Shown one piece after another: positions 6,825 through 32,983 of a stretch of DNA of 64,000 nucleotides. This stretch comes from Pseudomonas sp. S31 (lineage in GTDB: Bacteria; Pseudomonadota; Gammaproteobacteria; Pseudomonadales; Pseudomonadaceae). Within the stretch, counting starts at the first letter, position 1. Each line of letters starts with the position of its first letter. Under the pieces are notes generated by a model that searched no databases, was not told the origin of the DNA, and saw only the letters and a program-made list of their open reading frames with translations. The position numbers were made by a program, and so were the translations under genes. Location: the NCBI RefSeq assembly GCF_016648105.1, contig NZ_JACVVE010000005.1, positions 62,001 through 126,000 of the forward strand. Reading direction: 5' to 3'.

Positions 6825-6840
6825 AATGGATCCTGCGTAA

Positions 6841-7189: not shown

Positions 7190-7207
7190 GGTACGTTATA
7201 ACGTATC
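7190..7207 (+). promoter_or_regulatory. Probable Zur box upstream of the zinc ABC importer
   Basis: GGTACGTTATAACGTATC is an almost perfect palindrome around GTTATAAC, ending 27 bases before the 39-aa ORF that heads the importer operon. The GTTATAAC core is shared with the boxes at 17316 and 27674, and the 58254 site is a close variant. This form matches gammaproteobacterial Zur operators. Confidence 0.75.
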
Positions 7208-7234
7208 AATAAAATCCGAGGATGCCTTCTGATT

Positions 7235-7354
7235 ATGCGAAAAACCTCGTTCAACTCGCTGCTAGCCATGCCGGCGTGGCACCGCCTGGTAGGGGTGGCT
7301 GCAGCCTTGGTTCCACTGTGGCTTGCGATAAGCTGGGCGGTGGCTTTGCCATGA
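7235..7354 (+). CDS. 39-aa single-pass membrane peptide coupled to the zinc ABC importer
   Basis: ATG 7235 opens a 39-codon frame whose TGA overlaps the ATG of the ATPase gene (ATGA at 7351-7354). The product begins MRKTSFNSLLAMPAWHRLVG and continues with a hydrophobic stretch (VAAALVPLWLAISWAVAL) that could span the membrane once. A CGAGGA sequence lies about 12 nt upstream. The stop-start overlap, the downstream position relative to the Zur box and the membrane-peptide character argue that it is real and not just leader sequence. Function unknown; it may stabilise the permease or act as a translational coupler. Confidence 0.6.
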   Translation: MRKTSFNSLLAMPAWHRLVGVAAALVPLWLAISWAVALP

Positions 7355-8091
7355 ATAGAGCAGCGATTCGCGTCGATAAGCTCTCGGTTTCGTACGGAAC
7401 TGCACCTGCTATTCGCGAGGTCACTGGGGTGTTTGAGCCCGGTAGCCTGACTGCGATTGCGGGCCCGAATGGAGCTGGTAAGTCAACGCTATTGAAGGCA
7501 TTGATGGGCGAGATTGCTACCACAGGCTCCGTTGATCTCGGTGTTGTGCGGGCGCCTGACATTGGCTATCTACCCCAGGCATCTGCAATCGATCGAAGCT
7601 TCCCAATCACGGTCGCAGATGCGGTCTGTTTGGGTGCCTGGAAACACATCGGCGTGTTCGGCGGGCTCTCAATGAAGGGCACCGTTGCCATGCGTCAGGC
7701 ACTCCAGGATGTCGGACTGGCTGGTATGGAAAGCCGGCCAATCAGTGATCTATCAGTGGGGCAGTTTCAGCGCGTTTTGTTTGCTCGATTACTGGTTCAG
7801 GATGCGCGCGTTATCGTGCTTGATGAGCCGTTCACTGCGGTCGATTCGCGCACCATTCATGACCTGACGCAGATAATTTTAAGATGGAAGCAGGATGGCA
7901 GAACCGTCATAGCGGTATTGCATGACTTTGATCAGATCAGATCGACCTTCCCACAAACGCTACTGCTATCCCACAGGGTTGTCGCGTGGGGGAGCACTGA
8001 GGATGTGCTCACAGAAAACAACTTGAGCAAGGCTCGAGCCCTGGCCGAAGGCTGGGATGTTTCCACTGATCAAGAGCGGCGGGTAGCATGA
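7351..8091 (+). CDS. znuC: Zinc/manganese-type ABC transporter, ATP-binding protein
   Basis: The 246-aa ATPase has Walker A GPNGAGKST, signature LSVGQFQRVLFAR, Walker B VIVLDEPF and an H-loop VLHDF. Similarity is to the ZnuC/AztA class that powers uptake of zinc or manganese. I choose ATG 7351 because the preceding 39-codon ORF ends in an overlapping TGA and the earlier in-frame ATG at 7222 adds a non-homologous leader. The permease gene overlaps its end by 4 nt. The nearby Zur-like box suggests induction when zinc is low. The name znuC is by class; the system is closer to AztABC-like importers than to the canonical Pseudomonas znuA-zur-znuCB locus. Confidence 0.88.
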   Translation: MNRAAIRVDKLSVSYGTAPAIREVTGVFEPGSLTAIAGPNGAGKSTLLKALMGEIATTGSVDLGVVRAPDIGYLPQASAIDRSFPITVADAVCLGAWKHIGVFGGLSMKGTVAMRQALQDVGLAGMESRPISDLSVGQFQRVLFARLLVQDARVIVLDEPFTAVDSRTIHDLTQIILRWKQDGRTVIAVLHDFDQIRSTFPQTLLLSHRVVAWGSTEDVLTENNLSKARALAEGWDVSTDQERRVA

Positions 8092-8960
8092 CGGTTATCT
8101 CTTTGCTCATATCGCCATTCACTGAATACGGCTTTATGCGACGCGCGTTAGTAGCAACCCTCGCTATCGGTTTGAGCTCGGGCCCTGTGGGCGTCTTGTT
8201 AATGCTCAGGCGTATGAGTCTCGTAGGGGATGCCATGAGCCACGCCGTGCTACCTGGCGCTGCAATTGGCTTCATGATTGCTGGCGGACTTTCGCTACCG
8301 GCAATGGGGCTGGGCGGCTTGATAGCAGGGTTGAGCGTCGCTCTGCTCTCGGGACTGGTAAGCCGGATTACCTCTCTTCGAGAGGATGCAAGCTTTGCCA
8401 GTTTCTACCTCACATCCTTGGCCCTGGGCGTCATGATTGTGTCCTTGCGTGGGTCAAATATTGATCTACTGCATGTCTTGTTTGGCACTATTTTGGCCAT
8501 TGATAGTCAGGCGCTGTTTCTAGTGGGAGGGATTACATCATGTACATTGCTTGTGCTCGCTCTCGTATACAGACCACTGATTGTAGAATGCATTGATCCT
8601 GGATTTTTGCGAGCTGTTGGAGGGCGAGGTGCCCTGTATCACTTCATCTTCCTGCTTCTCGTAGTACTCAATTTGGTTGCTGGCTTTCAGACCCTGGGTA
8701 CATTGATGGCGGTTGGGATGATGATGCTTCCAGCTGCCACAGCTCAACTGTTGTCTCAACGCTTGCCGTCAATGTTGATGATCGCGGCGGCGAGCGCGGC
8801 CATTTCCGGCTACGTGGGGTTACTGATTTCTTACTATTTGAGCGTTGCATCAGGGCCTACCATAATTTTAGTGAATAGCCTGATCTACGTGCTGGCACTC
8901 CTATTCGGCCCTCATGGTTTCATATGGCGAATTGTCCGCCCTATTTCGCGTACCCGGTAA
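8088..8960 (+). CDS. znuB: Zinc/manganese-type ABC transporter, permease
   Basis: A 290-aa ABC-3 family inner-membrane protein with about eight hydrophobic segments. The family-typical region GLSSGPVGVLLMLRRMSLVGDAMSHAVLPG lies near the N-terminus (about residues 30-60), where family members contact the ATPase and line the pore. ATG 8088 overlaps the TGA of the ATPase gene. The product forms the membrane channel with the ATPase and the binding protein encoded 15 bases downstream. Confidence 0.88.
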   Translation: MTVISLLISPFTEYGFMRRALVATLAIGLSSGPVGVLLMLRRMSLVGDAMSHAVLPGAAIGFMIAGGLSLPAMGLGGLIAGLSVALLSGLVSRITSLREDASFASFYLTSLALGVMIVSLRGSNIDLLHVLFGTILAIDSQALFLVGGITSCTLLVLALVYRPLIVECIDPGFLRAVGGRGALYHFIFLLLVVLNLVAGFQTLGTLMAVGMMMLPAATAQLLSQRLPSMLMIAAASAAISGYVGLLISYYLSVASGPTIILVNSLIYVLALLFGPHGFIWRIVRPISRTR

Positions 8961-8975
8961 TAATAAGGAGACAAA

Positions 8976-9869
8976 ATGCGATTTTCCCGGTCTTTGTTGG
9001 CGTTGATCAGCTCTATTGGGCTGCTGGCTGTCACGTTACCAGCCTCCGCCAAAACACTGAACGTTGTTGCCAGTTTCACCGTATTGGCCGATGTCGTGAA
9101 GAATGTGGGTGGCGGTGGTGTGAATGTCACAAGCCTGGTGCCGCCCAATGGGGATCCTCATGATTTCGAGCCATCGCCGAGGGATGCCAGGGCTCTCAAA
9201 GAGGCTGATGTCACTTTCCTCAGTGGCTTAGGTTTGGAGAGCTGGTTCGAGAGACTGGCTCGCGCATCAGGTAGCCAGAAGAGCCCGGTAGTGGTTTCGG
9301 ATGGGATTGAAACTCTCACATTTGTTGAGGATGAGAAAACGATCACTGATCCACATGTCTGGAACAGTGCTTCGAACGTAAAGGTGTGGGTAGCTCGCAT
9401 TGAGTCCGAGCTGAGTAAAGCTGACCCGTCGCAGGCAGAGGTGTTTCATGCCAATGCGCAGCGCTACGTGGGGAAGCTCAATGCTCTGAATCAGCGTATC
9501 AGCATGCACCTTGCTGAGGTTCCTTTGGATCAGCGTAAGGTACTCACCAGTCATGATGCCTTCGGATACTATGCCAAAGAGTATGGTGTGACGTTCTTGT
9601 CCCCACTCGGCTTGTCGACAGAAACTGAAGCTTCTGCAGCAGACGTAGCACAGCTCATCGATCAGATCAAAAGTGAAGATATCAAGGTTTACTTCTTCGA
9701 AAATTCGAATGACTCCCGGCTAGTTAAGCAGATTGCTAGCGCAACGGGCGCTGTTGCCGGCGGAGAGCTCTACCCTGAGTCGCTTTCTGATGATAAAGGG
9801 CCGGTACCTACTTATCTGAAAATGATGGAGTACAACACGCAGCAAATGGTGAAAGCTTTCAAAAAGTGA
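8976..9869 (+). CDS. znuA: Periplasmic zinc/manganese-binding protein of the ABC importer
   Basis: A 297-aa cluster A-I binding protein with a signal peptide ending around ASA-K (residue 25). Metal ligands are recognisable as H62 in DPHDFEPS, H127 in DPHVWN, H193 in SHDAFGYYA and an acidic residue in YPESLSDD near 272. The His-rich loop of classical ZnuA is absent, as in AztC/PsaA-like proteins. A strong AAGGAG site precedes ATG 8976. It delivers metal to the permease just upstream. A close paralogue is encoded at 29774. Confidence 0.88.
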   Translation: MRFSRSLLALISSIGLLAVTLPASAKTLNVVASFTVLADVVKNVGGGGVNVTSLVPPNGDPHDFEPSPRDARALKEADVTFLSGLGLESWFERLARASGSQKSPVVVSDGIETLTFVEDEKTITDPHVWNSASNVKVWVARIESELSKADPSQAEVFHANAQRYVGKLNALNQRISMHLAEVPLDQRKVLTSHDAFGYYAKEYGVTFLSPLGLSTETEASAADVAQLIDQIKSEDIKVYFFENSNDSRLVKQIASATGAVAGGELYPESLSDDKGPVPTYLKMMEYNTQQMVKAFKK

Positions 9870-11975: not shown

Positions 11976-12001
11976 GTTTTTGACCGAAATCGGTCAAAAA
12001 C
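11976..12001. promoter_or_regulatory. Operator-like palindrome between lacI-type gene and gcd
   Basis: Two perfect 12-base arms (GTTTTTGACCGA and TCGGTCAAAAAC) are separated by AA. The core TGACCGAAATCGGTCA resembles LacI-family operators in symmetry. No T-run follows the stem on the plus strand, which argues against an ordinary terminator of the upstream gene. It lies about 220 bases before gcd. Confidence 0.45.
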
Positions 12002-12219
12002 GCCTTGTCTTTGGGCTGTCTTCTGAAGCGACAGGCTTACCATCTGCATCGCGCCTGCTTCAACTTGTCGCACTCTCGCGATGGGTTTAGCGCGACCCTA
12101 ATTTAGGAGCTTGATATCGCTAATTCTCTGCTTTTTGCGGCGGATAGCGTCTGCTCGAGCTCTAATCGGCGCTAATACCTTACACCGGATGTACTGCCGG
12201 TTTGTGGATAGGAAAAGAA

Positions 12220-14622: not shown

Positions 14623-14759
14623 GCCCCCAAATACCAAGGTGTTGCAGTCTTTGCACTGTGATGCCTTGGTTACTTTCCGCAGCTCCATGAATGCCACCCC
14701 TAGGTTCGAAGATGAACCAGGGCTTGTGGCTGTCTTTGCCAATCACGGGGGAGACATTT

Positions 14760-15056
14760 GTGCAGTTTCAGGTTTTGGATTTGAATGTCGATCTTGATAA
14801 GCGAGAGATTAGCTGTGGGGGCGGCCGTGTGAGGCTCTCCTCCAGACCGTTCGGTGTATTGGTTTTGCTAGCAAAGAATTGTGAAAGCATCGTGTCTAGA
14901 GAAAAACTTCTGGATGAGGTCTGGGGACTTAAATTTGACCCTGGAACAAAAGTAGTAGATGTCCAATTGACTAGGTTGAGGCGGGAGCTCAAGGATATCG
15001 GATGCAGTGCAAAAATTATGAACTTGAGGAGCGCGGGTTTCAAGCTCTGCACATGA
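14760..15056 (+). CDS. Orphan OmpR/PhoB-type winged-helix DNA-binding protein
   Basis: Only the C-terminal effector domain of an OmpR-type response regulator is present: VRLSSRPFGVLVLLAKN, REKLLDEVWGLKFDPGTKVVDVQLTRLRREL, then a wing ending RSAGFKLCT. No receiver domain is encoded upstream. I favour GTG 14760 (about 98 aa), preceded by GGGGGAG, because the domain begins there; an ATG at 14691 would add a leader without recognisable homology. It may be a stand-alone regulator or the surviving end of a larger gene. It lies just after gcd on the same strand. Confidence 0.65.
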   Translation: MQFQVLDLNVDLDKREISCGGGRVRLSSRPFGVLVLLAKNCESIVSREKLLDEVWGLKFDPGTKVVDVQLTRLRRELKDIGCSAKIMNLRSAGFKLCT

Positions 15057-15080
15057 GTAGACAAATTCTGCTATCGAGGC

Positions 15081-15107
15081 TCGCTGCGCGAGCGACTCGC
15101 GCAGCGA
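15081..15107. terminator. Hairpin between convergent genes
   Basis: Two perfect 12-base arms (TCGCTGCGCGAG and CTCGCGCAGCGA) with a 3-base loop lie between the ends of the winged-helix gene and the oprB-type gene. No T-run follows on either strand. It probably serves as a bidirectional transcription barrier or 3' stabiliser. Confidence 0.55.
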
Positions 15108-15126
15108 AGGGAAGCTGGGAGGAAAG

Positions 15127-16464
15127 TTAGAAGCTTGATCCTACCTGTAGGCCGATCACTACCGCGTTTTCTACTTTCCTGACGTTTCCAGGGTTACGGA
15201 TGTACTGGATGTTAGGCATCAAGTGAAACCAGTTAGTAGCTTGGATTCGATAGTTTAGCTCGGCTTGGTAACTGGTATGCTGCTCTGGGATGAACGAAGG
15301 GCTGTCAAAATACACACCGTTGGCCTGGTTCTTGAATTGGGCGTTTTCCAGGTATCGATCGCTAGCGTGTACGCGCGACAGACCAAGCCCTAGCTGATCA
15401 AGCGGGCGGAAATCAAAAGGCCCTTTATACACCAAGCTGATATGCATATAGCTATCGACGGGAGTAGTTGCTTGGTCTTGAAAACTAAGGCTTGCTGCAA
15501 GCACTAGACCTCGGCTTTGATCGTTGTTCTTGCTGCTGATCTGTTGCTTTGCATTAAGCCACCAGCCGCTGCGACCATCATGGACTCTGTGCTGATTCTG
15601 AGTGAGCGCTGCTGGTTGACCGTTGACGTCATTGAGTACGTCAGGACGGTTGACCGTATTCTTGAAATATCCAACACGGTACTCACCAGGTAATTTCCCG
15701 ATACGTGGCGTCCAGACAAGCTCCACCGGCAGCATGGTGCCACTTGTTCCGTGTGTTCGAAGCTTTAAGCCGTTGTCGTTGTCCAGACTCGAGGGATCAA
15801 CGTTGTAGGCAGCGATTTTGGCGACAAGGTCATCTGCCAATGCATACTGAAGACGAACTGCCCACGAACTGATAGGGCTGTTGTAGATGTCATTGACGTA
15901 GTTGCCAGGCTGCGAACCACAAAACGATAAATTTTGGAATGCGCAATCTGCAGTGGCGAACTCATCGCCTACTGTGAAACGCCCGATCTTTACGTTCAGT
16001 TTGTTGTCGATCCAGCCTTTCGACAGCCAGAATTGGCTTAGCCGTGTAACACTTCCTCTGCCGTGGATTTCTTGAGTCGCTCCGAAACCACCGACGCGAG
16101 GGTCGTTAAGAGCATCCTCATCCAGGCCACGACCATTGCGATTTGATAGACGGATTTCCGCTTCCGCATTTTTCCAGGACAGCAATTCCGAAAGATCTAG
16201 CTTTGCACCTGCTGACCACTGATCTGCATAACGGGCGGTATGGTGGGAGGCGCCCCCATGGACATTCGCTGCAATTTCACTCAGGTAGCTGAATTCTAGA
16301 TCAACACCCTGATCAGCAAGTTCTCCCCGGGAGCCGTTCCAGTCACCGAGCATCCAAGGCGAAGAGGGCGAGAGTGGTTCATGCGCAAGCGCCTGAGGAG
16401 TGTAAAGATTTATTAGGGCAAGAATGCTTAAGGTGGAGGTGGTGAAGGTATGGCGGAGGTACAT
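15127..16464 (-). CDS. oprB: OprB family carbohydrate-selective porin
   Basis: A 445-aa outer-membrane protein with a signal peptide cleaved near ALA-H (residue 27). The mature start PSSPWMLGDWNGSRGELADQGVDLEFSYLSE is typical of OprB porins, and the chain ends in F as beta-barrels do. Alternating aromatic and polar strands run throughout. OprB forms the glucose/carbohydrate channel of pseudomonads and is commonly linked to Gcd, encoded nearby at 12220. It may be a second, accessory copy. Confidence 0.85.
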   Translation of the reverse strand: MYLRHTFTTSTLSILALINLYTPQALAHEPLSPSSPWMLGDWNGSRGELADQGVDLEFSYLSEIAANVHGGASHHTARYADQWSAGAKLDLSELLSWKNAEAEIRLSNRNGRGLDEDALNDPRVGGFGATQEIHGRGSVTRLSQFWLSKGWIDNKLNVKIGRFTVGDEFATADCAFQNLSFCGSQPGNYVNDIYNSPISSWAVRLQYALADDLVAKIAAYNVDPSSLDNDNGLKLRTHGTSGTMLPVELVWTPRIGKLPGEYRVGYFKNTVNRPDVLNDVNGQPAALTQNQHRVHDGRSGWWLNAKQQISSKNNDQSRGLVLAASLSFQDQATTPVDSYMHISLVYKGPFDFRPLDQLGLGLSRVHASDRYLENAQFKNQANGVYFDSPSFIPEQHTSYQAELNYRIQATNWFHLMPNIQYIRNPGNVRKVENAVVIGLQVGSSF

Positions 16465-16793
16465 CCATAGTTCCTATGTTTGGTTTCTGTACGTACACCT
16501 AAAGCTTAGAGGACTGCCATGGTGTTCTGCGATTTTACCAACTGGCGTACTGGAGAAAGGTTAATTTTCTCTGGTTCGTCCTGCGAGAACGTCGGCTAAC
16601 AAAAAATTTCGAGTAAATTGTTATTGCAAATAAATTTGGTACGGGTAACGCTATTCAGGCGTTGCCCCCAAAATCTATTAGTCGGGAGCCTCTGTTTCCC
16701 GCTGGTTAAGCTGGTGAAATGCTCGATAAAATTATTGATTGCAATAGCCTCCGCGATACAGGCTAAGGTCGCTGGGGAAGTTAAAAAGCTTGG
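16465..16793. other. Intergenic region upstream of oprB
   Basis: About 330 AT-rich bases. It must contain the oprB promoter. I see no convincing gene, hairpin or operator. Confidence 0.3.
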
Positions 16794-17090
16794 TCAGTGT
16801 TGGAGTGCTTTCGGCGTAGCAATCACTGATGCCAAGACGTATGCATCCTGCATTGGGTGCAGGCTCTTAATCGTTTTGGAGTAAGGCGCTGCTGGATTCG
16901 AACACGTACCGAATCGGACGCCTTGCTGCTGTAATAGCTTCACCACTAGCAGTTCGTCCTCGTAAACCTCCATTTCATCAATCTTGACACGTAGTGCTGA
17001 TTCGATCTCGGCTAGGCGATCAGGCTCGATGCTGATGCGAAATAAATCTGCTGCGCGCTTGAGGTCAAGCTTGCGAGTCATAATGTTCAC
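16794..17090 (-). pseudogene. HAD-like hydrolase fragment
   Basis: The translation (about 98 aa) includes KLDLKRAADLF, VYEDELLVVKLLQQQGVRFGTCSNPAAPY and a DAYVLASV stretch. GVRFGTCSN matches the second motif (a strand ending in Ser/Thr-Asn) of haloacid-dehalogenase phosphatases. The N-terminal catalytic DxD region and the C-terminal Lys/Asp motifs are absent, so this is a remnant. The frame ends abruptly at 16794. Confidence 0.5.
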
Positions 17091-17215
17091 GAGTCATCTG
17101 GCCTGGGACGTCGTCTTTGCAGAGCACCTTTCTTCAGCAGTTGGCGAAAAGGATGCGTGCGAGAGATCACCCACATGAGGGAGCGAACGGCGTCGAATAG
17201 GATTGAAACGGCCAT
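17087..17215 (-). CDS. Possible 42-aa small protein, unknown function
   Basis: ATG 17215 opens a 42-codon frame ending TGA at 17087. The product starts MAVSILFDAVRSLMWVISRT and ends in an Arg-rich tail (RRRPRPDDS). It overlaps the start of the HAD fragment by 4 nt in another frame. It could be a genuine basic small protein or the shifted 5' part of the broken neighbour. I do not recognise a family. Confidence 0.35.
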   Translation of the reverse strand: MAVSILFDAVRSLMWVISRTHPFRQLLKKGALQRRRPRPDDS

Positions 17216-17315
17216 TAATGATTCCGGTTTAAGGAGGCTTGCGAAGAGCCTTTGAGCTTCTTTCAGTCCAGCGTGGAGGAGGGCTCAAGCGGTGATCGCC
17301 CGCATTTCGATTAAG

Positions 17316-17333
17316 GATATGTTATAACGTGTC
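17316..17333 (+). promoter_or_regulatory. Probable Zur box upstream of TonB receptor/ABC operon
   Basis: GATATGTTATAACGTGTC has the same core and spacing as the boxes at 7190 and 27674. It lies 46-63 bases before the receptor start, a normal promoter position. It predicts induction of the 17.4-22.3 kb operon in zinc-poor medium. Confidence 0.75.
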
Positions 17334-17378
17334 TTTTAGGCCTGTGCGTTCTGACGCTCGGGTTAACCATGAACTCGA

Positions 17379-19535
17379 ATGACATCCATGAACTCCTTAG
17401 CATCCACTCCGTTTCTCGTATCTGCGCTATGGCTTGCAATTGCTGACTCAAGCGCTTGCGCCGCAGAACCAACCTCAATTTCCCTACCCGCTAGCACCAT
17501 TGCTGCTGACCTCATTGCTGATGAGACGAGGCTCGGGCTTGATGTGCCTACCACTGCCGGAAGCCGCTTGGGGCTAAGCGCGTTGGAGACGCCCGCGAGC
17601 ACAACAGTTCTGACGGGAGAGAGCATTAGAGGCCACGGCGACACCACGGTGCAGGATGCTGTCGCGCGTAGTCCTGGCATTACGAATATTGGTGCTCCTG
17701 GTGATGGGGGGACTGCGCTGTCTGCTCGTGGGTTTACCGGGCAGGGCTCAGTGATGCAGCTTTTCGACGGTACTCGTCTCTATTCGGGCATGGGCTCGTC
17801 GACGTTTCCCGTGGATACCTGGTCAGTTGATCGTATTGACGTGCTTCGAGGCCCAGCCTCGGTGCTTTATGGAGAAGGCGCGACAGGGGCAGTGGTGAAT
17901 GTCATCCCGAAAAAGCCATTTGAGGGAGAAATCCGCAATCGGCTCCGCCTGGGTTACGGTTCGAACGACAGCAAGCAGAGGGCTTTAGACAGTGGCGGCT
18001 CACTGAGCGATGCATTTACATATCGATTGAACCTGAATCAGCTGCGTAGCAATGGATGGGTCGATCACGGCGATTCTCAAGGCAAATTCATTAGTGGCTC
18101 GCTTCGCTGGCAGGTAAACGAGGCGTTATCGCTTCAGCTGTCGCATGACTCCGGTGACCATACCCCGATGAATTACTTCGGTGTGCCACTCATTGATGGT
18201 CACTACAAGAGCAGTTTGCGGTACAAGAACTACAACATTGGTGGGGCTAAGCAGCATTACGATGACCAGTGGACGCGGCTTACCGCTAACTGGCAGATTT
18301 CCGATGCGGTCAGTTCAACCAACGAGCTGTATTACCTGAAGTCAAGGCGTCGATGGGCTAACGCGGAAAACTACAATTGGGACGCCGATGACCAAAAGCT
18401 ACTGCGTAGCGGATTCTATGGTATCAAGCATAATCAGGAGCAGGTGGGCGACCGACAGACTTTCACGATCCAACACTCCTTATTCGGGCTGAACAGTCAG
18501 AGTCTTGTAGGGTTTGATGTCAATCGTATTCGCTTCAAACTGACCAATAACTCACCTTACGACGATGTGGTGACGGCTGGCGAGCCGATCGATCTGCACC
18601 ACCCGAACCGGAACGGATTTCAAAGCGCTTCTGAATACCTACCGCTGTCTAAAAGCGTTACCCGTCAAGCTTCGTTCTTTGCAGAAAACAGGACTGAGCT
18701 TAGCGATCGCCTCTCAGTTATCACTGGCGTGCGCCGAGATTACGTAGACATTGATCGCGACGACCTAAGGGATGGATCAAGCTCCGGAAAGGATCTCATC
18801 GGAAACAACTGGAAGGTCGGCGTCGTCTATGAGTTAACGCCTGAGATGTCCATCTATGGTCAGCAGTCGACCAGCACGGACGGGGTAGGGGGGCTAATAA
18901 GCCTGAGCCCGAGTCAGCAGCAGTTTGACCTCGCCACCGCCCGGCAGACTGAAGTAGGCTTCAAGCAGATGTTTTGGGATCAAAAGGGCTCCTGGACACT
19001 GGCGGCCTATCACATTGTCAAAAAGAAACTCCTGACTGCAGATCCTCAATCGCCCGGGTCGTCTTTGCAGGTTGGGCAGCAATCCTCGAACGGGATCGAA
19101 GCCAGTCTGGATCTCCAATTGCCCTATGACTGGAAGCTCCAGGCAAATGCCGCTTTGGTCAAGGCGAAGTACGATGACTTTGATCAGGCGGTGTATGGCG
19201 TTGCGGTGTCACGCAGCGGCAACCGACCGGTGAACGTACCGCGCCGCACCGCCAATGTCTGGCTGGATAAGGCGTTTTCGCAGGATTTGAATGCTGGGGC
19301 GGGCCTGCGCTATGTCGATGCTCGCTATGCCGACATCGCGAACACGAACAAGCTTCCATCGTACACCGTCGTCGATGCTGCCGTTTCCTGGAAAGCCATG
19401 AAGAATACAACATTGGGCCTGCAGCTTAGGAATGTCTTCGACCGAGAGTATGCGAGCACGCAATACAACCAAGGGCAGCAGTGGATTCTGGGCGAACCTC
19501 GCTCCTTCTACCTGACTGGCGACATCGATTTCTGA
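17379..19535 (+). CDS. TonB-dependent metallophore receptor
   Basis: A 718-aa outer-membrane receptor with a signal peptide (cleavage near ACA-A, about residue 28). The plug domain includes VLTGESIRGHGDTTVQDAVARSPGITN and the sequence VDRIDVLRGPASVLYGEGATGAVVNVI typical of siderophore receptors. The barrel ends LGEPRSFYLTGDIDF with terminal F. There is no N-terminal signalling (STN) domain, so it is probably not a cell-surface-signalling receptor. ATGs at 17369 (other frame), 17379 and 17388 make the exact start uncertain. The next gene starts 3 bases after its stop. Receptor-ATPase-binding protein-permease is also the order of the zinc-responsive PA2911-PA2914 locus of P. aeruginosa. The substrate is unknown; a zinc-metallophore complex is the best guess because of the Zur-like box. 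Confidence 0.85.
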   Translation: MTSMNSLASTPFLVSALWLAIADSSACAAEPTSISLPASTIAADLIADETRLGLDVPTTAGSRLGLSALETPASTTVLTGESIRGHGDTTVQDAVARSPGITNIGAPGDGGTALSARGFTGQGSVMQLFDGTRLYSGMGSSTFPVDTWSVDRIDVLRGPASVLYGEGATGAVVNVIPKKPFEGEIRNRLRLGYGSNDSKQRALDSGGSLSDAFTYRLNLNQLRSNGWVDHGDSQGKFISGSLRWQVNEALSLQLSHDSGDHTPMNYFGVPLIDGHYKSSLRYKNYNIGGAKQHYDDQWTRLTANWQISDAVSSTNELYYLKSRRRWANAENYNWDADDQKLLRSGFYGIKHNQEQVGDRQTFTIQHSLFGLNSQSLVGFDVNRIRFKLTNNSPYDDVVTAGEPIDLHHPNRNGFQSASEYLPLSKSVTRQASFFAENRTELSDRLSVITGVRRDYVDIDRDDLRDGSSSGKDLIGNNWKVGVVYELTPEMSIYGQQSTSTDGVGGLISLSPSQQQFDLATARQTEVGFKQMFWDQKGSWTLAAYHIVKKKLLTADPQSPGSSLQVGQQSSNGIEASLDLQLPYDWKLQANAALVKAKYDDFDQAVYGVAVSRSGNRPVNVPRRTANVWLDKAFSQDLNAGAGLRYVDARYADIANTNKLPSYTVVDAAVSWKAMKNTTLGLQLRNVFDREYASTQYNQGQQWILGEPRSFYLTGDIDF

Positions 19536-19537
19536 AT

Positions 19538-20329
19538 ATGACAGGCGCCCTATTAACCATCAGAGACGTGGGCTGGACTTCGCCGAGGAGTGGTTCTGGC
19601 GTAGAGCCATTCATGCTCAAGAGCATCTACATGCGCATCGAGTCAGGCGAGTTCGTGGGGCTCATAGGGCCTAATGGAGGTGGAAAGACCAGCCTACTGC
19701 GCTGCGCCATGCGCTACAGCAAGCCTGAAAGTGGGCTGGTAGGTCTGGCAGGAAATGACCTGTGGGCGCAGTCGGCGCGATGGAGTGCCCAGCGAATTGC
19801 TGTCGTTGGGCAGGAGTTTCCTTCGGCGTTCGGCTTGAGCGTGCGGGAGCTGGTGGCAATGGGGCGCATTCCGTACCAACGGGGATTTCAGAGCGAAAGC
19901 GTCAAAGATCGGCAAAGGATTGATGATGCACTCGAAACCATGGACATCGTCCACCTTCAGCATCACGAGTTTGGGCTGCTCTCTGGTGGAGAAAAGCAGC
20001 GGACGTTGCTCGCCCGGGCGGTGACGCAAGATCCACAGGTACTCATCCTGGATGAACCTACCAACCACCTGGATCCGAAGCATCAGGTTGAGTTGCTGGC
20101 TCACGTCAAGAAGCTAGGCGTGGCGGTGATCGCGAGCCTTCACGACCTCAATCTAGCCGCAGTGTTTTGCGACCGACTGTACGTTATTAAGGATGGGCGG
20201 ATCGCTGCCCAAGGACGCCCGTGGGATGTCCTCACGCCGGATAATTTGCTCGAGATCTACGGCGTTGAAGCTTTAGTCGATGCGCACCCTCAAACCGGGA
20301 CGCCCCGTATTACTTGGAAAATCGCGTGA
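19538..20329 (+). CDS. FecE-type ABC transporter ATP-binding protein
   Basis: A 263-aa ATPase from ATG 19538, 2 bases after the receptor stop. Walker A is GPNGGGKTS (unusual Gly in place of the common Ala/Cys), the signature is LLSGGEKQRTLLARA, Walker B VLILDEPTNHLDP, and the H-loop SLHDLN. It is of the FepC/BtuD class that drives import of metal chelates through FecCD-type permeases. Its end overlaps the binding-protein start (GTGA). Confidence 0.88.
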   Translation: MTGALLTIRDVGWTSPRSGSGVEPFMLKSIYMRIESGEFVGLIGPNGGGKTSLLRCAMRYSKPESGLVGLAGNDLWAQSARWSAQRIAVVGQEFPSAFGLSVRELVAMGRIPYQRGFQSESVKDRQRIDDALETMDIVHLQHHEFGLLSGGEKQRTLLARAVTQDPQVLILDEPTNHLDPKHQVELLAHVKKLGVAVIASLHDLNLAAVFCDRLYVIKDGRIAAQGRPWDVLTPDNLLEIYGVEALVDAHPQTGTPRITWKIA

Positions 20330-21279
20330 AACCTATCTTTAGGCTGGCAGTTTTGATGGTCAGCTTGTCGGCTTCGATCAATGGCCAGGCGAGTTCATAT
20401 CCAGTCACCGTGAAAAGCTGCAACCGCAGTGTCGTTTTCACTCACCCACCTATGCGCGCGGTTAGCCAGGACGTGAATCTGACAGAGATGATGGTCGCCC
20501 TAGGGCTGCAGCCGCAGATGGTCGGCTATAGCGGCGTCACGGGCTGGAATAAACCCACCGCGGGATTGATGACAGCCCTCAAGGGATTGCCGGAGGTAGC
20601 CACGCATTATCCAACCGTCGAAACACTGCTGAACGTGAACGCAGATTTCTTCTTCGCTGGCTGGAACTACGGCATGAAGGTCGGAGGTGATGTCACGCCT
20701 CAGGCGCTGCAGCCTTTAGGTATCCAGGTTTATGAGCTGACTGAGTCTTGCTCGCTCATTGGGTCAAGTGCTGCGGCTAGCTTGGAGCAGGTCTACATCG
20801 ACGTGGCTAACCTCGGCAAAATCTTTGATGTCGAAGATCGGGCGCAACTGCTGATCACTGGCCTACGCAAGCGTCAGCAGGAGGTTGTTAATCGGGTGGC
20901 CGGAAAGAAGAAGCCTCGGGTGTTTGTATATGACAGTGGGGAGGATCGTGCCTTCACCGCGGGCCGACAGGCTATTCCTCAAGCTTTGATTGAGACCGCT
21001 GGAGGGCAGAACGTTATGGAAGACCTCAGTGCCAGTTGGACGCAGGTCGGATGGGAGAGCGTGGTGGAAGCAGACCCGCAGTACATCGTCATTGTCGACT
21101 ACGGTGAGCGAAGCTCGGCGGAGAAGATCCAATTCCTAAGCGAGAACCTCGCGTTGCAGTCTGTTGAGGCGATTCGAAACAAGCGATTCGCGGTGCTTCC
21201 CTACAGTGCCATGACGCCGGGAATTCAGAACGTCGATGCAATCGAAGCCTTGGCAACCGCGTTTGATGAGGTGCGATGA
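20326..21279 (+). CDS. Periplasmic chelate-binding protein (FepB/BtuF type)
   Basis: A 317-aa protein from GTG 20326, which overlaps the TGA of the ATPase gene. It has a signal peptide (cleavage near GQA-S, about residue 24) and a type III binding-protein fold: VKSCNRSVVFTHPPMRAVSQDVNLTEMMVALGL, then VETLLNVNADFFFAGWNYG, and a C-terminal VEADPQYIVIVDYG. It captures the metal-ligand complex delivered by the receptor. Ligand cannot be read from sequence. Confidence 0.82.
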   Translation: MKPIFRLAVLMVSLSASINGQASSYPVTVKSCNRSVVFTHPPMRAVSQDVNLTEMMVALGLQPQMVGYSGVTGWNKPTAGLMTALKGLPEVATHYPTVETLLNVNADFFFAGWNYGMKVGGDVTPQALQPLGIQVYELTESCSLIGSSAAASLEQVYIDVANLGKIFDVEDRAQLLITGLRKRQQEVVNRVAGKKKPRVFVYDSGEDRAFTAGRQAIPQALIETAGGQNVMEDLSASWTQVGWESVVEADPQYIVIVDYGERSSAEKIQFLSENLALQSVEAIRNKRFAVLPYSAMTPGIQNVDAIEALATAFDEVR

Positions 21280-22316
21280 TCATGACGCCGATCAAGACCC
21301 CGACTGCTTACGCTTGCCTCCTTGTGTTGCTCGCAAGCCTAATTGCGTTTGCTTGCTTATCTGCGCTCGCTATCGGAGCAGCACCGGTACCGCTCAAGGT
21401 CGCGTGGCAGGTCGTTCAAAGTCACCTATTTGGGGCTGAGCTGCTGGATGCCACATCTGGGCAGGATCACATCATCTGGTTGATCCGAGCGCCGAGAGTT
21501 GTCCTCGCTGTTCTCGTCGGAGCGGGACTCGCAATAGTTGGCGCTGCTCTCCAAGCTGTTACACGAAACCACTTGGCGGATCCGCATCTCTTGGGAGCGA
21601 CTTCCGGTGCAACTCTTGGAGCCGTCGTTGTTGTTATGTATGTGGGGGAGCTGTTGGGCCAATTCACTTTGCCGCTCGCCGCTTTTTTGGGGGCTTCAGC
21701 TTCTCTATTGCTTGTAATGGCAATCGCTCGGAAGCATGGCACTTTCACGAGTAATCGGCTGCTGCTGAGCGGTGTAGCGGTGTCGTTTGTGTTGATGGCT
21801 GCGGCTAATCTCGTGTTGTTTCTTGGCGATCATCGTGCGAGTTCATCAATTTTGTTCTGGATGATGGGTGGGCTTGGCGCGGCTCGCTGGGAGCTACTGT
21901 GGCTGCCGCTCTGTGTGATTGTGCTGGGAGGTCTCGCGCTTTGGGCGTGTGGGCGTTCACTGAATGCGCTTATGACGGGCGAACAGACGGCTGTCAGCTT
22001 AGGCGTGGACGTGCATAGTATGCGGGTCGGCGCATTTGTCATGACGTCGTGCATGACGGGTGTGATGGTCGCGCTAAGCGGGTCGATCGGCTTTGTGGGA
22101 CTCATGGTTCCCCACATGGCACGCCGGCTGGTGGGTGCCGAGCATCGTCGTCTAATACCCGTTTGCGGATTGCTCGGTGCTTTACTTGTGGTGTGTCTGG
22201 ATATGGCCGCCAGGACTTTGATTGCGCCTCAGGATCTGCCCATCGGTGTCGTCTCTGCAGCTATAGGGGGGGCCTTCTTCATTGTCATGATCTATCAGAG
22301 TAGAGCTGAAGCCTGA
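21276..22316 (+). CDS. FecCD-type ABC transporter permease
   Basis: A 346-aa protein with about nine or ten hydrophobic segments. Family motifs are present: IRAPRVVLAVLVGAGLAIVGAALQAVTRNHLADPHLLGATSGA at about residues 70-112 and GSIGFVGLMVPHMARRLVG near 270. ATG 21276 overlaps the TGA of the binding-protein gene. It completes the four-gene import operon; no dedicated terminator is obvious in the 150 bases that follow. Confidence 0.88.
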   Translation: MIMTPIKTPTAYACLLVLLASLIAFACLSALAIGAAPVPLKVAWQVVQSHLFGAELLDATSGQDHIIWLIRAPRVVLAVLVGAGLAIVGAALQAVTRNHLADPHLLGATSGATLGAVVVVMYVGELLGQFTLPLAAFLGASASLLLVMAIARKHGTFTSNRLLLSGVAVSFVLMAAANLVLFLGDHRASSSILFWMMGGLGAARWELLWLPLCVIVLGGLALWACGRSLNALMTGEQTAVSLGVDVHSMRVGAFVMTSCMTGVMVALSGSIGFVGLMVPHMARRLVGAEHRRLIPVCGLLGALLVVCLDMAARTLIAPQDLPIGVVSAAIGGAFFIVMIYQSRAEA

Positions 22317-26571: not shown

Positions 26572-27573
26572 CTAACTAGGCCTATAGTGCGCTTCGTACT
26601 GATTGCGATATGCCTTAGGTGTGACCCCTAGGTGACGTTGAAATACTCTTCTCATGTGTTCTTCTGAACCGAAGCCACATTGTGCGGCGATACGCTTCAA
26701 AGCTACGTCTTCATCAGCTAGCAAACGTCGTGCGCGCTCGAGCCTCGCGCGCTCTATGAATTCAGAGGGTGAGCTTTCGGTTTGACGTTGAAAGACCCGC
26801 CGCAGGTTGCGAGTGCTCATGTTCGCCTGGGAAGCAAGTGTTTCTAGAGTAAGATCCCGGCTAAGGTTTTGAAGAATCCAGATCTGTAATTCTCTTATTC
26901 CGGAATGCGGAGTCATCTGGCTACCGAGATGCTGGCTAAACTGAGACTGCCCGCCGGGACGCTTTAGATAGACGACTAGCTCTCGCGCTATGGTTAATGC
27001 CAGATCCTGTCCGAGATCCTGCTCTACTAAAGCTAGGCTCAAATCTATAGCCGCCGATACGCCGGCACACGTCCAAATCCGTCCGTTTTGAATGAAAATG
27101 GCATCAGCGTTGACATTGATTTCCGGAAATTCGGTAGCGAGTCGGGTAGCAACGCTCCAGTGAGTGGTTGCGTCAAGGCCATCCAGGACACCCGCTTGCG
27201 CGAGAAAAAAAGCCCCAGAGCAGACGCCCACGAGCCGATCAATCCGGGATGCTGCGTGTCTGCACCAATCTACGATAGGGCGATGCTGATGTACTGCTGT
27301 TGTAATGTCACGGGCGCCAACAATCAGCGCGGTGTTAGGCAGGATTCTGCTCCGCAGAGATTCCGCATCGAGTCTGGCTAACGTGTCGGATTGAATCGAG
27401 CCCGCCTTTGGCGCGACTAAATGGAGGTCGTAAAGCGGAGGCTCGCCGCTCGCTGTCAGATGCGCATTGGCGTAGTCAAACACCGTGAGCGCACCTACAG
27501 CTTCGAGGGACTTGAAGCCGGGATAAATGACAATGTGTACGGTGTGGAGGGCCGGTGCATCGGTTAGCCTCAT
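26572..27573 (-). CDS. GlxA family transcriptional regulator (DJ-1/PfpI plus AraC domain)
   Basis: A 333-aa protein. Residues 10-190 form a DJ-1/PfpI-like sensor (VHIVIYPGFKSLEAVGALTVFDYAN, then GVCSGAFFLAQAGVLDG with the nucleophile-elbow Cys). The C-terminal AraC domain has two helix-turn-helix motifs (LTLETLASQANMSTRNLRRVFQRQTESSP and AAQCGFGSEEHMRRVFQRHLGVTPKAYR). It is divergent from the structural-zinc-less dehydrogenase at 27703. A close relative (30754) is likewise divergent from the ordinary dehydrogenase, suggesting a duplicated regulator-enzyme module responding to formaldehyde or a thiol adduct; the ligand is not known. Confidence 0.85.
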   Translation of the reverse strand: MRLTDAPALHTVHIVIYPGFKSLEAVGALTVFDYANAHLTASGEPPLYDLHLVAPKAGSIQSDTLARLDAESLRSRILPNTALIVGARDITTAVHQHRPIVDWCRHAASRIDRLVGVCSGAFFLAQAGVLDGLDATTHWSVATRLATEFPEINVNADAIFIQNGRIWTCAGVSAAIDLSLALVEQDLGQDLALTIARELVVYLKRPGGQSQFSQHLGSQMTPHSGIRELQIWILQNLSRDLTLETLASQANMSTRNLRRVFQRQTESSPSEFIERARLERARRLLADEDVALKRIAAQCGFGSEEHMRRVFQRHLGVTPKAYRNQYEAHYRPS

Positions 27574-27673: not shown

Positions 27674-27691
27674 GATACGTTATAACCTAAC
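27674..27691 (+). promoter_or_regulatory. Probable Zur box directly before the frmA paralogue
   Basis: GATACGTTATAACCTAAC; the first 13 bases are identical to the ideal GATACGTTATAAC half and core, with the right arm weaker. It ends 11 bases before ATG 27703, so bound repressor would block the promoter or the ribosome region. It places this dehydrogenase in the zinc-starvation group. Confidence 0.7.
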
Positions 27692-27702
27692 GGAGTACAA
27701 CA

Positions 27703-28908
27703 ATGAAAACACGTGCCGCTATCGCTTGGGGGCCTAATCAGCCACTAGAATTTGAAGAAGTTGACCTTGAGGGCCCAAAAGACGGGGAAGTGCTTGTCCG
27801 GATCGTCACGACCAGCCTTTGTCACACGGACGTCTTCACTTTGTCCGGGCGAGATCCTGAAGGGAAATTTCCTTGCATCCTCGGTCACGAGGGGGTGGGT
27901 ATCGTTGAGGACGTAGGCCGCGGCGTTACGTCCGTGAAGCCAGGCGATCATGTCATTCCGCTGTATACGCCAGAAGATCCAAACTGCCCCTTCATCAAAT
28001 CTGGTAAGACCAACCTTAGCCAGTCTATTCGAAAGACCCAGGGCGAAGGACTAATGCCTGATGGCACAAGTCGTTTTTCCTATAAGGGACGGACAATTTT
28101 CCACTACATGGGTACATCCACATTCAGTGAGTACACCGTTTTGCCCGAAATTGCCGTTGCTAAAATCGATCCTGCAGCCCCGCTGGCCAAGGCTTCGATT
28201 ATGGGTTGTGCGATTCCGACGGGCATTGGTGCTGTCCGGAACACTGCCAAGGTTCGTACGGGTGATACCGTTGCTGTATTCGGCCTGGGCGCTGTCGGAA
28301 TGGCAGTTATCCAAGGAGCTGTTCTCCAAGGGGCGAAACGTATCATCGGCATTGACGTCAACCCCAACAAGTTCCCATTAGCCATGTCCCTTGGAGCGAC
28401 TGAGTGCGTAAATCCTAGGGACTACAACGAGCCACTTCAAAACGTCATCATTGACATGACGAATGGTGGTGTAGATTTCTCGTTTGAATGCGTGGGTAAT
28501 GTCGAACTCATGCGAGCCGCGCTTGAATGCTGCCACAAAGGATGGGGAGAAAGTATCATCATCGGCGTGGCCGGCGCTGGAGAAGAAATCGCTACCCGAC
28601 CGTTCCAGTTAGTGACTGGTCGAGTGTGGAAGGGGAGCGCTTTTGGCGGGGTATTGGGTCGGTCTGAGCTTCCAGGCATGGTTGATGAATGGCTTCGTGG
28701 TGAGATTAACGTTGATCCATACATCACTCACAATATGGATCATGAAACACTGAACCATGCATTTGACCTTCTGAAGCGTGGGGAGGCGATTCGTTCGGTA
28801 ATCCATTACCAAGAGCGTGAGACACTTAGCCATGATTTGCCTGGAGTGATTATTGATCGTAACGGGCGCGTGATTCCAAAGCCGGAACTGAAGCATACAC
28901 CTGCTTGA
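27703..28908 (+). CDS. Class III alcohol dehydrogenase paralogue lacking the structural zinc site
   Basis: A 401-aa paralogue of glutathione-dependent formaldehyde dehydrogenase. The catalytic zinc ligands are kept: C40 in LCHTD, H62-E63 in GHEG, C169 in [10 protein letters not shown]. The NAD-binding GLGAVG region is also intact. The structural-zinc lobe is changed: the four cysteines present at 93, 96, 99 and 107 in the ordinary copy (31871) correspond here to D92, C95, I98 and S106 ([20 protein letters not shown]). Three of four ligands are gone, so this site cannot bind zinc in the usual way. The enzyme would need one zinc per subunit, not two. The C-terminus is about 28 residues longer than the ordinary copy. 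A Zur-like box 11 bases upstream suggests expression when zinc is scarce. It probably oxidises S-(hydroxymethyl)glutathione, though a changed substrate is possible. Confidence 0.85.
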
Positions 28909-28941: not shown

Positions 28942-29773
28942 CTCGTTGGGTTAGAGTCGCTTGTTGTGATGTCTTAATTCTATATATATTAATAATAATG
29001 TAAGTCTACCGTATGGACTGAGTCGGTGAGGGTAATGCAATGAAGGAAATAACAAAAGAGAAGTGTAGCTTGAGACTGACCTCCTTGAATAATCGCCAGT
29101 TAGTGGGCGCGGGAATTTTTTTGGGAGGGTGGTTTCTTATCATAGGCTATCTAGTTATCCACCAATCGGGTTAAAAAGCGACCGCCACCGAGTCAGTGAA
29201 AGAAAAGGGATTGAAGCGGCGCGTAAAAACTTTAGTAGCCCGCCGCCGCTACCTCTAACCCGCAAGGGTGTTCACACTAGAGGTGCGGCAGGAAGGCTGA
29301 AGGGCAGCGCCATCTCCAAGGTGAATACGCTCATCTCGAACACTCATAAAAAATAAAGGGGTGATGTTTTTTCTATTTGTCCCTGTGTGAGTATGTTGTA
29401 CATACAATTTGAATTTCAGGTCATTCCATTGATACGATATGTTGTCTGGCAATATGTCGTCATATGAAAATAAGCTGGAGCTTGCTGTGGGTAGACGCTG
29501 GTTTATATAGCTTCTATCTCGGCGCTTTAGTCTGATGTTTAACGATTGCGTGCGTGCTTTAATACAATATTGTTTTGCTTCGTCTTCTCTCAAGTGATTG
29601 TGGTGGCTGATAATGGCGGGAAGTTTTGGGTTTTTTGTCGTTGGTTCTGCTCAAAGTTAAGGAGTGTAACGGCGTGTAAGCGTGCTTGCATGAAATGTAT
29701 ATTGATGGGTATGTGTGGGGATGTGGTTGGTAAGTAAATCTCTACTAGCATGATGTGGATAGAAGGAAATGAA
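28942..29773. other. Long AT-rich gene-free stretch before the orphan binding-protein gene
   Basis: About 830 bases without a supported gene. Short frames on both strands lack ribosome sites and family resemblance. No good Zur-like palindrome was found here, although the downstream gene is a zinc-binding-protein paralogue. Confidence 0.3.
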
Positions 29774-30667
29774 ATGAGACTGTCTAGTGCTGTGGTTGCG
29801 CTAATGAGCTCAATTAGTTGGTTGTTCGGTGGTTCAGTGGCATGCGCGAATACGCTTAACGTTGTATCAAGCTTTACAGTACTTGCCGATGTTATCAAAA
29901 ACGTAGGTGGTGATGGTGTCAAGGTGAGGAGTATTGTCCCTCCAAATGGCGATCCCCACAAATTTGAGCCCTCACCAGCTGACGCAAAATCGCTGAAGGA
30001 GGCTGATATCACATTCATTAGCGGCTTGGGATTAGAAAGTTGGTTTGAACGGCTAGCTCTGGCCTCAGGAAATGAAAATCCACCGGTCGTTGTGTCTGAG
30101 GGAATTAAGCCAATCACTTTTTCTGAAGGCAGAAAAACGAAAATAGATCCTCATGTATGGAACAGTGTGGCAAATGTTAAACTCTGGGTGACTAAGATTG
30201 AGGCGGAGTTAACCAAGGCAGATCCTAATCAAGCGAAGAATTTTAGTGATAATGCGGACTCTTACATAGCTAAGCTTGATGCTTTAAATCAGCTCATTAT
30301 CATACAGCTCGCTGAGGTACCACTTGCGCAACGAAGAGTGTTAACGAGTCATGATGCGTTTGGATATTATGCAATGGAATACGGAGTGAGTTTCCTCTCA
30401 CCACTGGGCCTTTCCACTGAGATAGAAGCATCCGCGGCTGATATAGCTACGTTAATTGACCAAATTCGACGAGAGGGGGTTAGGGTATATTTCACTGAGA
30501 ACTCAAATGACTCTCGGCTTGTGTCTCAGATTGCGAATGCCACTGGAGCTAAGACAGGTGGTGTTCTTTACCCGGAATCTCTTTCAGATGAGAATGGCCC
30601 CGCATCAAACTATATTAAGCTGATGGAATACAATACGCGACAAATAGTGCGGGCGACTATGCTGTGA
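29774..30667 (+). CDS. Orphan zinc/manganese-binding protein (ZnuA-like paralogue)
   Basis: A 297-aa paralogue of the binding protein at 8976, nearly colinear along its length: FTVLADVIKNVGGDGVKV, NGDPHKFEPS, DPHVWNSV, TSHDAFGYYAMEYGVSFLSPLG, YPESLSDENGP. All metal-ligand positions are kept. I use ATG 29774, preceded by AGAAGGAAA, giving a signal peptide cleaved near ACA-N; the frame is open slightly earlier. There is no permease or ATPase next to it, so it may serve the importer at 7351-8960 or act as a periplasmic zinc store. Codon use is AT-richer than in its paralogue, suggesting independent acquisition. Confidence 0.82.
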   Translation: MRLSSAVVALMSSISWLFGGSVACANTLNVVSSFTVLADVIKNVGGDGVKVRSIVPPNGDPHKFEPSPADAKSLKEADITFISGLGLESWFERLALASGNENPPVVVSEGIKPITFSEGRKTKIDPHVWNSVANVKLWVTKIEAELTKADPNQAKNFSDNADSYIAKLDALNQLIIIQLAEVPLAQRRVLTSHDAFGYYAMEYGVSFLSPLGLSTEIEASAADIATLIDQIRREGVRVYFTENSNDSRLVSQIANATGAKTGGVLYPESLSDENGPASNYIKLMEYNTRQIVRATML

Positions 30668-30753: not shown

Positions 30754-31743
30754 TCACGTTTTTGTAAACCGGTCGCGGTATTCTTTGGGCGTTACTGATA
30801 GAAACTTTTTAAAAGCAAGACGCATATGGTCAGCGCTAGTAAAGCCGCTCATGAACGATACTGTTTTGATGGGCAGGCTTCCACCGCTTAGCAACCGCCT
30901 GGCATGATCAATTCTGGCTTGGTCTAGGAACTGGGATGGGCACATGCCCACTTCTTTGCTGAATGTTCTGGTGAAATGTCTTGTGCTCATAGCCGAGCGC
31001 TCAGCCATAGAGGCTACGGACATTTTGCTATTGAGATTCTCAATTACCCAATTTTGGATTTCACGCATGCTTGTGTTCTGCGTTCTTTGTGAAACTAAAT
31101 TTGCACTGAACTGTGATTGTCCACCAGGCCGCTTAAGGAAGATTACTAGATCCTGAGCCACTTCAAGTGCTAGCCGATGACCATGATCCTCCTCTACAAA
31201 CGCTAACGCTAAATCAATCGATGCACTGACCCCTGCAGATGTCCAGAAGTTCGCGTCTCTGATATAGATGGAATCAATATCTAGCTTCACTTCCGGATAT
31301 TTCTTCGCAAAAGCATCATTCATCCTCCAGTGTGTGGTGGCTCGTCGACCATTCAATAATCCTGTAGCTGCAAGGAAAAATGCGCCAGAACATAGTGCGG
31401 CGAAGCGTGGAGTGCTGGGTGCGGCTCGATGGATCCACTCGATAATCGATGGATTTTCGATTACTGCATTCTCGATGTAGTGAGCACCCACGACGAGAAT
31501 TGAGTGGGCATCGGTAGACATTTCTAGGTCAATTGTCGCATCCAGGGTCATGATTGTATCTGATGGTACAGGGCCGATTTTGCTTGAACGGATAGCGACC
31601 CTATAGCCCGGCGGATAACCGTAAGACCCCAAAATCCTATTGGCATAGCTGAATACGGTCATTGGGCCGATTGCTTCAAAGGCTTTGAAACCTCGGTAGA
31701 TAACCAGCTCAATTGACCTGGTCTGGTAGTCGTCTAAGAGCAT
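30754..31743 (-). CDS. GlxA family transcriptional regulator (second copy)
   Basis: A 329-aa paralogue of the regulator at 26572. A DJ-1/PfpI-like domain (IELVIYRGFKAFEAIGPMTVFSYAN, AALCSGAFFLAATGLLNG) is followed by an AraC DNA-binding domain (SVASMAERSAMSTRHFTRTFSKEVGMCPSQ, FMSGFTSADHMRLAFKKFLSVTPKEYR). GGGAGAA precedes ATG 31743. It is divergent from the ordinary frmA at 31871, its likely target. Confidence 0.85.
   Translation of the reverse strand: MLLDDYQTRSIELVIYRGFKAFEAIGPMTVFSYANRILGSYGYPPGYRVAIRSSKIGPVPSDTIMTLDATIDLEMSTDAHSILVVGAHYIENAVIENPSIIEWIHRAAPSTPRFAALCSGAFFLAATGLLNGRRATTHWRMNDAFAKKYPEVKLDIDSIYIRDANFWTSAGVSASIDLALAFVEEDHGHRLALEVAQDLVIFLKRPGGQSQFSANLVSQRTQNTSMREIQNWVIENLNSKMSVASMAERSAMSTRHFTRTFSKEVGMCPSQFLDQARIDHARRLLSGGSLPIKTVSFMSGFTSADHMRLAFKKFLSVTPKEYRDRFTKT

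Positions 31744-31855: not shown

Positions 31856-32983
<1,128 letters not shown>

Follow-up and report, generated by a model that had tools for sequence, protein, structure and literature searches.

Alcohol dehydrogenases (ADHs) without a structural zinc exist, the tetrameric bacterial secondary ADHs being an example, and the same medium-chain ADH fold works there without that metal. These are distant subfamilies; we know of none that is of class III or tied to Zur, and a search for literature on ADHs lacking the structural zinc returned nothing usable. The closest described enzymes are the class III ADHs FrmA/AdhC (TIGR02818; human ADH5/GSNOR, 1TEH and 3QJ5). The genes described here agree with them in fold, catalytic ligands, pocket residues, and family score, and differ from them in the replacement of C92, C98 and, repeatedly, C106, in a C-terminal tail, and in a Zur-like operator and a zinc-limitation neighborhood.

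The closest described regulatory systems are the Zur-regulated, zinc-independent paralogues of zinc proteins (DksA2, HemB2, HisI2, PyrC2, gamma-CA, CysRS2, and AmiA; PMC2770081, available in part). Like our gene, these are second copies of a zinc enzyme with a Zur-like box and COG0523 neighbors, and some have likewise lost zinc ligands; here, by contrast, the structural site alone appears to be lost and the catalytic zinc kept. In the available portion of that work, Haas et al. describe nine Zur-regulated paralogue families (HisI, PyrC, gamma-CA, HemB, CysRS, ThrRS, amidase, QueD, and DksA); class III ADH is absent from the nine, and the word "dehydrogenase" is absent from that portion of the text. 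A Zur review, in the sections available (PMC6103462), includes alcohol dehydrogenase among zinc-free paralogues under Zur regulation and tabulates adhA of Corynebacterium, zinc-dependent according to the legend, together with adhP of Neisseria, the latter in a separate column. Both resemble the present case as Zur-linked alcohol dehydrogenase genes. The Corynebacterium glutamicum adhA product is, however, described as zinc-dependent, and the excerpt of PMC2823685 at hand reports no Zur binding to the adhA site in vitro, which sets it apart from the Zur control predicted here.

A preliminary description of this locus knew of no described example of such a replacement for FrmA. For FrmA that statement holds in the literature searched, since no report of a Zur-regulated or Zur-linked class III ADH was found in open-licence papers, subscription papers lying outside the search; for alcohol dehydrogenases at large it has to be narrowed, given the review just cited. 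The kind of system is known; a class III ADH with loss of the structural site alone looks new. We read the gene as a Zur-repressed, zinc-economizing stand-in for FrmA that would have given up the structural zinc site while keeping the catalytic zinc, and, judging from sequence, we put the probability of this reading at about three in four.

A class III ADH paralogue and its predicted activity

The paralogue gene occupies positions 27703..28908 (+) of the window (the whole 64,000-nucleotide stretch of Pseudomonas DNA analyzed) and encodes a protein of 401 aa. The protein matches TIGR02818 along the entire profile (positions 1-368 of 368) with 634.6 bits, against a curated cut-off of 543.95, falls within the clade defined below, and carries a C-terminal extension beyond residue ~370. 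The catalytic zinc ligands C40, H62, and C169 and the adjacent E63 are intact, as the preliminary description had stated, and this catalytic CHEC set is kept in 170/170 genes compared, clade and ordinary alike. D51, E53, E63, R110, and R364 are invariant in 36/36 aligned sequences, the paralogue included; we take these residues to form the glutathione-adduct pocket. For the human enzyme, the title of one reference mentions Glu67 and Arg368.

An AlphaFold model of the paralogue (mean pLDDT 78.1, falling to 66-71 over residues 91-110) supports the fold only, and at the structural-zinc lobe it is too weak for judging metal binding. Foldseek searches with this model placed the human GSNOR/formaldehyde dehydrogenase 3QJ5 on top (TMt 0.94, 59% identity); the top structural matches were human and plant GSNO reductases, relatives of formaldehyde dehydrogenase within a single enzyme family. 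By sequence, the PDB held no solved structure close to the clade, the best matches being ordinary class III enzymes at ~516 bits. Taken from sequence, the paralogue is probably a glutathione-dependent formaldehyde, and probably also S-nitrosoglutathione, dehydrogenase of the class III ADH type.

The enzyme could be under Zur control and yet serve mainly S-nitrosoglutathione/NO or another adduct, the loop of the catalytic cysteine and the C-terminal tail having shifted substrate use. The substitutions G170A and T172P, fixed in the clade, adjoin catalytic C169, the clade proteins have in common a conserved tail some 17-35 residues long, and the closest structures are those GSNO reductases; moreover, NO reductase genes are raised in zinc-limited Paracoccus denitrificans, according to the accessible part of PMC5387054. 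Against such a shift, the presumed glutathione-adduct pocket residues are unchanged and no substrate-specific neighbor gene was found. We regard this alternative as possible but unlikely. In the text searched, PMC5387054 reports no ADH in the zinc response of P. denitrificans, which would weigh against the zinc-economizing reading if that strain carries a clade gene.

A zinc-economizing stand-in presupposes an enzyme to stand in for, and the window holds an ordinary FrmA at 31871..32983 (+) with all four structural cysteines, a TIGR02818 score of 732.2 bits, and a best upstream Zur-like dyad that is poor (12/18). A further contig of the host genome (6.37 Mb, 114 contigs) carries a third class III ADH copy, which shares 68% identity with the paralogue. 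The chromosomal FrmA of the host groups in the tree with the FrmA of P. bananamidigenes. The zinc-requiring counterpart, with four structural cysteines, was also present in 9/9 whole genomes checked; for five plasmids the search covered the plasmid record alone. A lone gene for an AztC-like metal-binding protein (29750-30667; 267 bits, below the cut-off of 350) lies between the window's two ADH genes, with no adjoining transporter partner and no dyad of the 18-bp form described below.

Replacement of the structural-zinc cysteines

The former structural-zinc lobe spans codons 92-106 of the paralogue (27976..28020, +), where D92, C95, I98, and S106 stand in place of four cysteines. At the same positions FrmA (ATG 31871) has four cysteines, its numbering being one higher. 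Alignment thus bears out what the preliminary description had reported for these residues. A structural zinc held by four cysteines is therefore not a feature of the paralogue, and this feature lies outside the TIGR02818 curated cut-off.

Among 170 genes, a count that contains one duplicate entry in each of the two sets, the four positions occur in two states only, with no intermediate: DCIC (49 genes) and DCIS (5 genes) on the one hand, and CCCC (116 genes) on the other. We refer to the former 54 as the clade. The label is defined by D92 together with a non-cysteine at 98, so that the presence of D92 in every member is true by definition. I98 replaces one ligand in every clade member. Position 106 is cysteine in 116/116 ordinary genes and has changed at least four times within the clade, as expected if residue 106 no longer holds metal. 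C95 is kept in 54/54 clade genes, a retention that is unexplained if the site is dead.

The preliminary description had called the structural site "discarded." This is firm for the window copy, in which one cysteine is left and only D92 and C95 are retained, but softer for the 49/54 members that keep D92, C95, and C106; in these, to go by the residues, the three side chains plus a fourth ligand could still hold a metal. An acidic residue substitutes for one cysteine in at least one archaeal ADH. The paralogue might, on such grounds, be an extra copy rather than a zinc-sparing one, its altered lobe still binding a second metal and Zur simply raising the amount of enzyme in zinc shortage. The conservation of D92 and C95 throughout the clade and of C106 in most of it fits this idea, and the available part of PMC2770081 offers a precedent, in that Zur-regulated HisI, CysRS, ThrRS, QueD, and AmiA paralogues keep their zinc residues and may just raise copy number. 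It is opposed by the isoleucine at 98 in all members, by the repeated changes at position 106, and by the window copy itself with its two remaining residues, and we consider it improbable. Under the zinc-economizing reading, the paralogue is predicted from its residues to need, probably, one zinc per subunit.

Zur-like dyads in the host genome and among relatives

An imperfect 18-bp dyad, GATACGTTATAACCTAAC, lies at 27674..27691, ends 11 bp before the ATG, and abuts the GGAG ribosome-binding site. It matches GWTAYGTWATWACRTAWC at 17/18 positions, a score reached by 0/300 mononucleotide shuffles. The preliminary description had placed a palindrome 11 bases before the ATG. The 13-mer GATACGTTATAAC (27674-27686) is not a palindrome; it is the left part of the 18-bp dyad, and 16 bases separate its end from the ATG at 27703. 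The dyad as a whole does end at the distance given. A promoter scan around the paralogue gave a single match, which lay within the coding sequence, and the count was no higher than in shuffles.

Two further dyads of this form precede transport genes in the window. The dyad GGTACGTTATAACGTATC (7190..7207) lies ahead of an aztABC-like operon (7222..9869, +) of zinc ABC transporter genes whose best matches are AztA, AztB, and AztC, and GATATGTTATAACGTGTC (17316..17333) lies ahead of an operon encoding a TonB-dependent receptor and a siderophore/corrinoid-type ABC importer (17379..22316, +). A weaker dyad with two mismatches (58254-58271) has a minus-strand ORF (57404-58126) on one side and a TonB-receptor ORF (at 58274) on the other. 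Allowing up to three mismatches, the pattern GNTAYGTTATAACRTANC occurs 5 times in the window; dinucleotide shuffles average 0.29 sites, and none of them reached 5. Allowing up to two, it has 8 sites in the 6.37-Mb genome against 2 for a reversed control pattern, and 7/8 of these are on the contig of the window (C70). Neither count is a blind test, as the pattern was drawn up from the sites at 7190, 17316, and 27674; comparison with relatives is the better test. A 13-bp GTTATA-n-TATAAC box considered as the main motif was dropped in favor of the 18-bp dyad, since the genome had 24 forward matches to this box and 30 to its control.

Outside the window, GNTAYGTTATAACRTANC sites stand ahead of a zur-like/amidase gene pair (C70:131374), hisI2 (C70:134356), an ORF at C70:184779, and a dksA paralogue with two cysteines (C76:2217); the dksA box falls within the longest ORF listed there, upstream of a later ATG. 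Curated cut-offs are not reached by the zur-like, amidase, and Azt matches but are exceeded by those of hisI, dksA, FolE2, ZigA, HemB, PyrC, and CysS. With a Zur-type dyad upstream, as at the other zinc genes of the host, the paralogue is a predicted member of the Zur regulon.

Most of these sites share one genomic setting. From about 38,000 to 206,000, contig C70 has a GC content of ~53% against 61-66% in the flanks, and the entire window is inside this stretch. The low-GC stretch of ~168 kb is a large genomic island that carries most of the Zur-like sites of the host genome. About 36 kb from the paralogue, it holds a full zinc-limitation cluster (C70:126,157-136,153; 157-10153 of stretch L068) with two Zur-like dyads and genes for CysS, COG0523, FolE2, ZigA, zur-like, amidase, HemB, HisI, and PyrC paralogues. 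Near the right end of the island, three successive long ORFs look tyrosine-recombinase-like by eye (10963-17640 of stretch L071, -). A tRNA search of the stretches holding the island ends found none.

Among the relatives, a match to GWTAYGTWATWACRTAWC of at least 15/18 within 300 bp upstream is present at 30/54 clade genes versus 0/116 ordinary ones. A second, 13-bp form, GTTAYANTRTAAC, which was drawn up post hoc from Rhodobacterales upstream regions, adds nine clade and two ordinary genes (L111 and L112), for 39/54 versus 2/116. Neither form occurs within 300 bp upstream of the other 15/54 clade genes; three of these have a dyad farther out, at about -580 to -805, and the upstream region of one is masked by N. 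Also among these 15, the three Gluconobacter genes have their dyad at -2439, where a gene row begins with folE, and for three more genes (L225, L227, and L230) no dyad was found within the region examined, which extended up to 6 kb. The preliminary description had asked whether the altered genes co-occur with Zur boxes; within up to 6 kb, dyads of at least 15/18 accompany 43/50 clade genes and 0/75 ordinary genes. This 6-kb comparison leaves out four clade genes (L073, L255, L267, and L232) and 41/116 ordinary ones, which have less than 8 kb of sequence or are the FrmA of the window. Low GC as an artefact of the motif scan was rejected, the median GC being 0.615 in clade regions and 0.600 in the control.

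The gene neighborhoods, over the same distance of up to 6 kb and the same 50 clade and 75 ordinary genes, show a parallel contrast. At least one of seven core zinc-limitation genes is near 35/50 clade genes versus 4/75 ordinary ones. Individually, the figures are 25 versus 1 for COG0523, 11 versus 0 for HisI, 14 versus 0 for DUF1826, 6 versus 0 for DUF1007, 8 versus 0 for Zur/Fur, 14 versus 1 for Azt/Znu, and 5 versus 0 for both gamma-carbonic anhydrase and CysS. FolE gives no contrast (3/50 versus 3/75). According to annotation, a clade gene is near aztABCD and COG0523 genes on a Paracoccus versutus plasmid and near znuABC and a repressor gene on a Sagittula plasmid; on Gluconobacter plasmids it is part of a folE-hisI-zigA-ADH-carbonic anhydrase row.

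The dyad could instead serve another regulator, such as Fur or the GlxA/AraC-family protein encoded divergently from the paralogue at 26572..27573 (-), whose best NCBIfam match is FtrA (225.4 bits, below the cut-off of 425); the dyad sits in the intergenic stretch between the two genes. A GlxA regulator is found within up to 6 kb of 19/50 clade genes versus 2/75 ordinary ones, and sites of the Fur family resemble one another. However, dyads of the same form precede the aztABC-like genes, hisI2, dksA, and the zur-like gene, all without a GlxA partner, and many dyad-bearing clade regions have no GlxA gene. The clade gene of Paracoccus sp. MA, furthermore, has a 15-mer 36 bp before its ATG that is identical to the one assigned, in Table 7 of PMC5387054 (available in part), to the zinc-responsive promoter of pden1338 in P. 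denitrificans. We hold control by a regulator other than Zur to be very unlikely. The FrmA at 31871 likewise has its own divergent GlxA/AraC-family regulator gene, at 30754-31743. The presence of such a regulator beside each ADH gene of the window suggests a paired duplication or a common signal; a search for literature on AraC regulators of glutathione-dependent formaldehyde genes yielded nothing usable.

Descent, selection, and proposed role of the clade

The preliminary description had also asked if there is a class III ADH clade without the structural cysteines, and the answer is yes. In a tree built with a quick method, a branch of length 0.52 with SH-aLRT support of 100 separates 51 clade rows from the others, making the group monophyletic. 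This split is independent of the labelling by D92 and non-cysteine 98, and the tree therefore shows the clade to be a real group. The tree has 92 rows, including 41/116 ordinary rows, with one identical clade row left out; the ordinary set consists of the best hits to the query and is not a random sample. Clade proteins are 387-405 aa long, two broken copies aside, versus 369-376 aa in the ordinary set. The broken copies, at least two in number (L266 and L241), are counted in the 54 and absent from the trees and from the 52-row column comparison. L266 has a stop after 8 codons, with a 16-of-18 dyad still upstream, and L241 (344 aa) comes from a Gluconobacter oxydans plasmid, where it has no annotated gene.

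The genome sets searched for members overlap one another. The clade gene occurs in 3 of 298 genomes of the host's family (the host and two others, with 96% and 89%), in 2 of 398 genomes of a phylum sample, host included, in 11 of 394 genomes of the family of Pseudooceanicola endophyticus, in 2 of 385 of that species' class sample, P. endophyticus included, and in 26 of 250 genomes of a further family (that of genome G342), across 6/24 genera. Plasmids of Paracoccus, Sagittula, Tritonibacter, and Gluconobacter supplied more members, among the matches listed (25 of 1681 plasmid records), as did named genomes, among the best 80 of at least 588 stretches.

Purifying selection acts on the clade, with dN 0.070, dS 1.26, and dN/dS 0.055 for the pair L075/L073; pairs with the window gene are saturated in dS and give no ratio. 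One common set of substitutions runs through 52 clade proteins. Neutral drift of a redundant FrmA copy, with dyad and zinc genes carried along by chance on a mobile island, would be in keeping with the low-GC island, the second and third frmA of the host, and the two broken relatives, but we reject it as already contradicted by the dN/dS ratio and the common substitutions, and the dyad adjoins the gene in several unrelated gene arrangements.

At the protein level the association is one evolutionary event. Because the residue change is a single event on the tree, the strength of the case comes from the repeated genomic association in differing arrangements, not from repeated loss. We find it reasonably probable that this is a horizontally spread enzyme family in which the structural zinc was lost once and the catalytic zinc kept, a zinc-economy FrmA passed along in zinc-limitation islands of gamma- and alphaproteobacteria, on chromosomes and plasmids. 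Clade, dyads, and recognized zinc-limitation neighbor genes together lend support to the zinc-sparing interpretation first put forward in the preliminary description, as far as sequence can speak to it.

We propose that, when zinc is plentiful, zinc-loaded Zur would occupy the dyad at 27674-27691, over the presumed promoter or leader, and keep the paralogue off, while FrmA, with two zincs per subunit, would carry out detoxification. When zinc is short, Zur would be released, and the paralogue would be made along with zinc importers, COG0523 metallochaperones, and other zinc-sparing paralogues. If each subunit takes one zinc rather than two, the same zinc supply would support about twice as many active subunits; as the catalytic zinc stays, the saving would be only partial. 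In some species, a further signal may come from the divergent GlxA/AraC-type regulator.

If this reading is correct, formaldehyde/S-nitrosoglutathione detoxification would be a protected function of the Zur response, joining the few functions that bacteria safeguard by exchanging zinc proteins, and zinc sparing would be partial and take place inside one enzyme, with the structural zinc dropped and the catalytic zinc kept. The paralogue gene would serve as a marker for zinc-limitation islands and as a clean target for tests of Zur in non-pathogenic hosts. In mammalian ADHs, the structural zinc is described as essential to both structure and dimer formation (PMC4960878, in the part available), and some 50 natural variants lacking the complete site, with a common rebuilt loop and tail, would therefore provide a ready set for learning how a protein replaces a structural metal.
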